Part shown: piece by piece, positions 48,334 to 49,111 of the stretch
How positions within the stretch are numbered: the first letter of the stretch is position 1
Layout of the letters: every line of letters begins with the position of its first letter
NCBI GenBank assembly: GCA_003220685.1
Contig: QHTE01000069.1
Span: 1 to 64,000 of the forward strand
Length of the DNA stretch: 64,000 bases
Direction of reading: 5' to 3'
Source: Candidatus Rokuibacteriota bacterium
GTDB taxonomy: Bacteria; Methylomirabilota; Methylomirabilia; Rokubacteriales; CSP1-6
Made by a program: the position numbers and the translations under genes
Notes under the pieces: generated by a model
Databases searched by the model: none
What the model was told of the DNA's origin: nothing
Seen by the model: only the letters and a program-made list of their open reading frames with translations

Positions 48334-49111
48334 GTGCGACCGTTACAGGAGCGCTACGAGATCATCAGGCTATGGCGCGCCGGGAATAGCGCCAAGAGCC
48401 TTGCCCGACGGAGTGGGATCCCGCGCGCGACTATTCAATACTGGATCCGGCACTTTGCTGGTGTAGCCCAAACGGCAGAGGCAACCGACTTAAAATCGGT
48501 ACAGTGGGGGTTCGAGTCCCTCCACCAGCACCAGCACGCCGCTTACGTCTATCTCCTGGGGCTGTACCTCGGCGACGGCTACATCAATCGACCGCCAAAG
48601 ACATACCTTCTCCGGATCTTTCTCAACGACGGCCCGCCTCGCGTCGTCGCCGAAGCGTCTCGAGCGATCGCGCTGCTCATGCCCAGACGTGTCGGGCTTG
48701 GCCGACAGGGCCGATGCCGGTTCGTCAGAGCGTACTGGGGCGGGTGGCCGGCAATGCTCCCACAGCACGGGGCCGGCAAGAAGCATTCTCGAAAGATCGC
48801 GCTCGAGCCGTGGCAAGAGAAGCTCGTCGCAGCGCACCCGGATCAGTTCGTACGCGGCTGCATCCATTCTGACGGCTGTCGGCATCGGCGCATCGTCAGA
48901 GGCAAAAACTATCCGGCTTACGCATTCTCCCAATCGGTCGTCGGATATTCTCGAGCTCTTCGCGTGGACGTGTCGGCTCCTCGGTCTGCGGGCCATCCGC
49001 TCGAGCCAGATCGCGATCTCCATCGCTCGTCGGCCTGACGTCGCCAGGCTCGACGAGATCATGGTCCGCTCGTGGAGCGACCAGCCGCAGGCGGGGACAC
49101 TGTCCGGCTGA
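48334..49111 (+). pseudogene. HTH + LAGLIDADG-like (homing-endonuclease-like) protein, interrupted by a +1 frameshift at about 48929-48931 and carrying an in-frame tRNA gene between the domains
   Basis: Frame 1: MRPLQERYEIIRLWRAGNSAKSLARRSGIPRATIQYWIRHFAG...YVYLLGLYLGDGYIN...LPQHGAGKKHSRKIALEPWQEKLV...FVRGCIHSDGCRH; continues in frame 2 as NRSSDILELFAWTCRLLGLRAIRSSQIAISIARRPDVARLDEIM to TGA 49111. Confidence 0.75.
48457..48533 (+). tRNA. tRNA with anticodon UAA (Leu by codon), short class-I variable loop, CCA encoded; nested within the HTH/LAGLIDADG ORF
   Basis: Acceptor gctggtg/caccagc; anticodon stem accga/tcggt with loop cTTAAaa; variable acagt; T-arm ggggg-ttcgagt-ccctc; discriminator A; CCA. 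Confidence 0.88.

Follow-up and report, generated by a model that had tools for sequence, protein, structure and literature searches.

Group I introns with endonuclease genes occur in bacterial tRNA-Leu(UAA) genes as selfish elements, and the function of the tRNA is left intact. I-AniI, I-DmoI and WhiA, which resemble the endonuclease described here in fold and motifs, are intron- or intein-encoded or host regulators, and none of them is known to contain a tRNA within its ORF. In phage T4, the homing endonuclease SegB is encoded within a tRNA cluster, and its target is an intergenic tRNA region (PMC2988022); homing endonucleases among phage tRNA genes promote inheritance of the tRNA region (PMC2988022; PMC13096335). 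Horizontally acquired tRNA arrays of mycobacteria contain phage-derived, short-variable-loop tRNA-Leu genes along with homing HNH genes (PMC6582537). In the engineered ClvR system (PMC7951863), a nuclease directed against an essential gene is combined with a tightly linked, recoded and resistant copy.

The locus analysed here lies in a 64,000-nucleotide stretch of DNA from Candidatus Rokuibacteriota bacterium (assembly GCA_003220685.1, contig QHTE01000069.1), referred to as the window. As with SegB, a homing endonuclease is located among tRNA genes; SegB, however, is a GIY-YIG enzyme encoded separately from the tRNA genes, whereas the protein described here is of the HTH-LAGLIDADG type, has a tRNA in its reading frame and is associated with a class-switched tRNA-Leu that replaces the resident one. 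The tRNA-Leu of the mycobacterial arrays, in contrast, is an extra gene beside the normal one, is not nested in an endonuclease ORF and involves no replacement. Unlike in the group I intron cases, no intron is present; the resident tRNA gene has been disrupted or exchanged, and a second, complete tRNA comes with the element. ClvR is engineered, uses Cas9 in insects and relies on a protein-coding rescue, whereas the system considered here would be natural, with a presumed tRNA rescue inside the nuclease gene. A search of the open-access literature for a tRNA nested in an endonuclease ORF gave no prior description.

The features of the locus, all on the plus strand of the window, are:
47673..47747, +, tRNA-Gly(GCC), opening the conserved Gly-Cys-Leu tRNA cluster (ARAGORN, Rfam, synteny)
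47780..47855, +, tRNA-Cys(GCA), second gene of the cluster (ARAGORN, Rfam, synteny)
47904..48275, +, conserved ORF of 123 aa, function not assigned, found between tRNA-Cys and tRNA-Leu in many relatives; syntenic marker outside the element
48334..48456, +, HTH segment (homeodomain-like, HTH_23) of the endonuclease ORF, GTG start at 48334 (Pfam, homologs)
48457..48533, +, class I (short variable arm) tRNA-Leu(UAA), CCA encoded, in frame within the ORF (ARAGORN, Rfam)
48534..48930, +, predicted LAGLIDADG endonuclease domain, sharing one frame with HTH and tRNA until the frameshift near 48,930
48930..49111, +, C-terminal endonuclease part in another frame, where the homologous sequence continues (NRSSDILELFAWTCRLLGLRAI...)
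49179..49904, +, lgt (Pfam PF01790), 3' flank of the locus in relatives, whether or not they have the element

As the original prediction had stated, a tRNA with encoded CCA lies in frame between an HTH and a LAGLIDADG segment, which was confirmed by ARAGORN, Rfam, Pfam and the ORF coordinates. The tRNA scored 61 bits against Rfam RF00005 (gathering threshold 29), in agreement with ARAGORN, and has a cloverleaf, the anticodon UAA and the discriminator A73 (ARAGORN, Rfam, sequence). ORF 48334-49038 spans the whole tRNA, base 1 of which is codon position 1, and the tRNA is translated in this frame as AGVAQTAEATDLKSVQWGFESLHQHQ. HTH_23 covers residues 5-43 of the ORF; LAGLIDADG motif 1 (YLLGLYLGDG) follows shortly after the tRNA 3' end, and motif 2 reads GCIHSDG. 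The prediction of one HTH-LAGLIDADG endonuclease gene held as far as both domains are real; the window copy, however, is out of frame from near 48,930, with homology resuming in the frame of 48689-49111, and this copy is therefore decayed or mis-assembled. Intact relatives exist, e.g. P0004. The predicted drop in G+C was also found, with 0.56-0.66 at the HTH-tRNA-LAGLIDADG block vs about 0.70 nearby. No group I intron was detected in an Rfam scan of positions 47000-50000, and the tRNA is uninterrupted. TTA codons were absent from about 50 putative window ORFs (some 18,000 codons) outside the endonuclease ORF, which has two, one of them consisting of the tRNA's own U33 and the first two anticodon bases. 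With TTA missing from the window ORFs except in the element, the pressure to replace the tRNA may be weak.

The assignment as a LAGLIDADG endonuclease is a prediction from two motifs with acidic residues and from the modelled fold. Motif 1 (G76-x-Y78-L-G-D-G82) and motif 2 (G175...S179-D-G181) are invariant or almost so in the family, PF14528 was found in relatives, and the family profile matches I-AniI. AlphaFold gave confident HTH and nuclease domains (mean pLDDT 91) connected by a low-confidence linker at residues 45-57, within the stretch encoded by the tRNA, and Foldseek matched the modelled nuclease to I-AniI, I-DmoI and WhiA.

Among 5.8 billion proteins searched, dozens of relatives showed the order HTH, tRNA translation, LAGLIDADG. 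Many further members came from a second search that started from phage and divergent sequences of the family; their linkers decode to tRNA-Leu(CAA) or tRNA-Leu(UAA), a few of them resembling class II as judged from the proteins (P0137, P0157, P0175). About 66 metagenomic proteins keep the arrangement in one frame, as do two phage contigs, and the anticodons are UAA or CAA: contig L152 (214 kb) carries a nested tRNA-Leu(UAA) and contig L153 (78 kb) a nested tRNA-Leu(CAA). At the DNA level, nesting was seen in genomes G000, G021 and G039 and in both phage contigs, the copies of which fall on different branches of the LAGLIDADG tree, where many branches are weakly supported. Distant relatives combine the same HTH and nuclease with an ordinary linker, often with CxxC motifs. 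The check proposed in the original prediction was thus run, and the tRNA recurs at the HTH/LAGLIDADG boundary in the same frame in many metagenomic relatives and the two phage contigs. The layout recurs in homologs and is no unique decayed insertion, nor is the HTH segment an unrelated sequence, as it is homologous to the HTH of tRNA-free family members. A reading of 'GLNPVQ' linkers as encoding a UGA anticodon was rejected, since TTA-AAC gives UAA. No hits were obtained when the phage proteins were compared by tblastn with GenBank phages, or the intact bacterial protein with PLSDB plasmids.

Openness of the frame through the 77-nt tRNA, which the original prediction had noted, is true but unremarkable alone, because the same frame is open in 46 of 70 distinct class I tRNA-Leu genes. 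Beyond chance are the recurrence with both domains in the same frame, the lack of a start codon and the covariation. In 13 of 14 loci, the stretch from the end of the tRNA to nuclease motif 1 contains no ATG, GTG or TTG, so that translation must begin inside or upstream of the tRNA. The anticodon stem encodes four residues, which in the 66 nested proteins covary as pairing requires (T-V, A-A, I-I; D-S, G-P, P-G, H-W). A full anticodon stem is possible in 17 of 21 distinct residue combinations vs 4.2 ± 1.5 after shuffling (0 of 2000 shuffles reached 17), counts that ignore shared ancestry and hence overstate independence; as the nested proteins were found as long ORFs, the set is silent on how often the frame is broken. 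This pattern indicates that the nested tRNA is under selection as RNA. In the LAGLIDADG part, changes at the third codon position outnumber those at the other two, e.g. 29, 25 and 77 changes at the first, second and third position between G007 and G003; the excess at the third position points to purifying selection on this domain. In relatives with a class II tRNA before the nuclease, the distance from tRNA to nuclease ranges over 21-60 nt and yet is divisible by three in 8 of 9 loci.

Loci were collected with one tRNA-derived and one nuclease-derived peptide pattern. A tRNA-Leu gene lies within about 600 nt in 75 of 76 HTH-LAGLIDADG genome loci and in all 8 viral loci of the first scan; loci with a non-tRNA linker can have entered only via the nuclease pattern, which does not select for a neighbouring tRNA. 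In Mycobacteriaceae, the endonuclease gene stands head to head with a class II tRNA-Leu(UAG); its position in Streptomyces and other actinobacteria is after tRNA-Leu(CAA), which often has a class I form of 74-76 nt; and in Chloroflexota and Solirubrobacterales it follows tRNA-Leu(CAA), (CAG) or (UAA). Across several lineages, class I tRNA-Leu is found inside the endonuclease gene, overlapping or just past its 3' end, or just upstream. Many family members, in most genomes, adjoin an intact native tRNA-Leu; together with the class II-like nested tRNAs, these show that the class has not been switched in every case. Fourteen relatives have the LAGLIDADG part after an intact class II tRNA and lack the HTH; in the LAGLIDADG tree these loci branch among class I forms, and they may be recombinants.

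In Streptomyces and relatives (loci L114-L150, e.g. L131:3774-3847), the endonuclease-linked tRNA-Leu(CAA) is class I with 74-76 nt. No class II Leu(CAA) was among the matches listed for two Streptomyces genomes, the sole Leu(CAA) match being class I, although the degenerate pattern is noisy, with reversed-control matches outnumbering real ones. Streptomyces, a model genus, may accordingly be using a class I tRNA-Leu(CAA). Two family members of Solirubrobacterales (L143:3873-4220, L151:3803-4166) adjoin tRNA-Trp(CCA), a hint of other tRNA targets.

In the host's family, the conserved gene order is galT, tRNA-Gly, tRNA-Cys, the 123-aa ORF in part of the genomes, tRNA-Leu(UAA), lgt, rtcB. At this galT-lgt locus, tRNA-Leu(UAA) is class II in 28 genomes, class I in 9 and both in none, and BLAST with each class gave one class only per genome. 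The window tRNA, with 77 nt and a short variable arm, falls outside the class II form of bacterial tRNA-Leu(UAA), which measures 86-90 nt in relatives at the same locus. Both classes are present inside each of four genera (g1, g4, g14, g23), so replacement was repeated. The HTH segment occurs only with class I (G000, G021, G039, and as a stub in G031), and five genomes have the class I tRNA without endonuclease (G046, G050, G053, G055, G060). In G031, the class I tRNA keeps a few HTH codons before it and a few LAGLIDADG codons after it; these stubs and the lone class I tRNAs are probably scars of lost elements. What looked like a second tRNA-Leu(UAA) in G050 was in fact Leu(CAA). One short contig (L250, G043:C192) carries two class II tRNA-Leu(UAA) genes, which lie about 1 kb from each other on opposite strands. 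Rfam and BLAST searches of the window's genome, an 88%-complete assembly, gave no further UAA-decoding tRNA, and it is from being the sole UAA tRNA found that the class I tRNA would be expected to be charged with leucine. Among 40 loci compared, the same syntenic site occurs with, without and with decayed copies, which is consistent with homing; most copies in assembled genomes are decayed. The class-switched tRNA-Leu in place of the native one and the tie of the family to tRNA-Leu genes had, like the frameshift, escaped the original prediction.

In phage contigs L152, L153 and L154, a class II tRNA-Leu is broken after the D-arm. In L153, the element lies between a 5' half (acceptor and D-arm) and a 3' half (T-arm and acceptor), the acceptor strands of which still pair; the anticodon arm is missing and not interrupted by an intron. 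The element itself contains an intact class I tRNA-Leu(CAA), whose acceptor stem is almost that of the broken tRNA. In L152 and L154, the class II 5' half is upstream of the endonuclease and a class I tRNA-Leu is in or after the endonuclease gene. The L153 phage holds two more modules with the order class II 5' half, HNH, class I tRNA-Leu:
L153:369-996 and L306:121-1025, phage IMGVR_UViG_3300035698_014118, two HNH modules with class I tRNA-Leu (UAA, UAG) after or overlapping the HNH gene

HNH and LAGLIDADG, two unrelated nuclease families, thus have in common the combination of broken class II tRNA-Leu, nuclease and class I tRNA-Leu. In a scan for both class II halves, they were found together in one locus only (L153), and none is left in the window; single-half matches in GC-rich genomes away from the endonuclease are probably chance hits. 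Exact-pattern scans of IMG/VR gave no intact versions of the phage split tRNAs. On L306 (4181-4591), an HNH-type ORF runs with its 3' end into a tRNA-Pro(GGG) gene, the same style of overlap with a non-leucine tRNA. A class II-like tRNA-Leu that ARAGORN did not call (L153:6018-6155) has an oversized middle, with about 113 nt between the start of the acceptor and the T-arm, and may contain an insertion.

We consider it fairly probable that the window copy is a decayed member of a family of HTH-LAGLIDADG homing endonucleases which invade tRNA-Leu genes, that its subgroup carries a class-switched replacement in its own frame and, jointly with this, that the codons of the tRNA provide a flexible link from the DNA-binding to the nuclease domain. 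The endonuclease would cut the resident, usually class II, tRNA-Leu gene as its target site, and repair would copy the element in, breaking or displacing the resident gene. The embedded tRNA would then take over decoding, being different enough in sequence and class to escape cutting. Nesting in the ORF would keep cutter and replacement together, since both share the same DNA and are not easily separated. After decay of the nuclease gene, the class I tRNA would be left as a scar and as the host's only UAA tRNA. The HTH-less class II loci would be accounted for only via later recombination. A more far-reaching reading, held tentatively and at somewhat less than even chances, is a natural cleave-and-rescue gene drive of bacteria and phages, which destroys tRNA-Leu, carries an immune, class-switched, linker-encoding tRNA and has repeatedly replaced the hosts' tRNA-Leu(UAA), possibly also the Streptomyces tRNA-Leu(CAA). 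Linkage of a class I with a broken class II tRNA-Leu was observed in phages, and class II is absent wherever class I is present; the nuclease would have caused the break and the class I gene would be insensitive to it.

The tie to tRNA-Leu could also reflect site preference only, with conserved tRNA-Leu targets, class I genes drifting in from phage arrays and the tRNA serving as a passable linker. The family members beside intact native tRNA-Leu in most genomes agree with this, as do the class I tRNA-Leu genes common in phage contigs without these endonucleases, the short-loop tRNA-Leu(TAG) in horizontally acquired mycobacterial arrays (PMC6582537) and the frequent openness of tRNA genes in two frames. 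It is nevertheless judged unlikely, because class I tRNA-Leu adjoins endonuclease genes in several arrangements and lineages, the two classes do not occur together at the locus, and the class I scar in G031 has endonuclease stubs on both sides. Any tRNA within an mRNA is a likely RNase P substrate, and the tRNA might instead act as a processing device, freed by RNase P and 3' end-processing enzymes, that limits full-length endonuclease as a regulatory brake and not as a rescue. On the related suggestion of the original prediction, a single transcript split by RNase P/Z into HTH mRNA, tRNA and endonuclease mRNA, the data are neutral. Cutting would remove the translatable 5' part in the 13 of 14 loci that have no start between tRNA and nuclease motif, and transcript processing and RNA structure keep the homing endonucleases of T4 in check (PMC2988022). 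Such a brake does not account for the constant presence of a Leu isoacceptor, the mutual exclusion of class I and class II at the locus or the broken class II tRNA-Leu beside the modules; as a full explanation it seems quite improbable, and it is compatible with the replacement model as an added effect. An accidentally open frame in a decayed endonuclease gene that happens to flank a tRNA would fit the frameshift of the window copy and the proportion of class I tRNA-Leu genes open in this frame, but is refuted by the same-frame recurrence in separate lineages, the matching covariation in 66 proteins and the spacers in multiples of three, and retains only a negligible probability.

If the replacement model is true, one DNA segment would be selected twice over, for its tRNA and for the protein linker that it encodes, and the element would be a natural counterpart of engineered cleave-and-rescue drives. 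It would also provide a route by which selfish elements replaced housekeeping tRNA genes in whole bacterial lineages. The analysis brings to light a large family of endonucleases linked with tRNA-Leu genes, with members in Mycobacteriaceae, Streptomyces, Chloroflexota, Rokubacteria and phages, and leucine tRNA identity without the long variable arm becomes a directly testable question.
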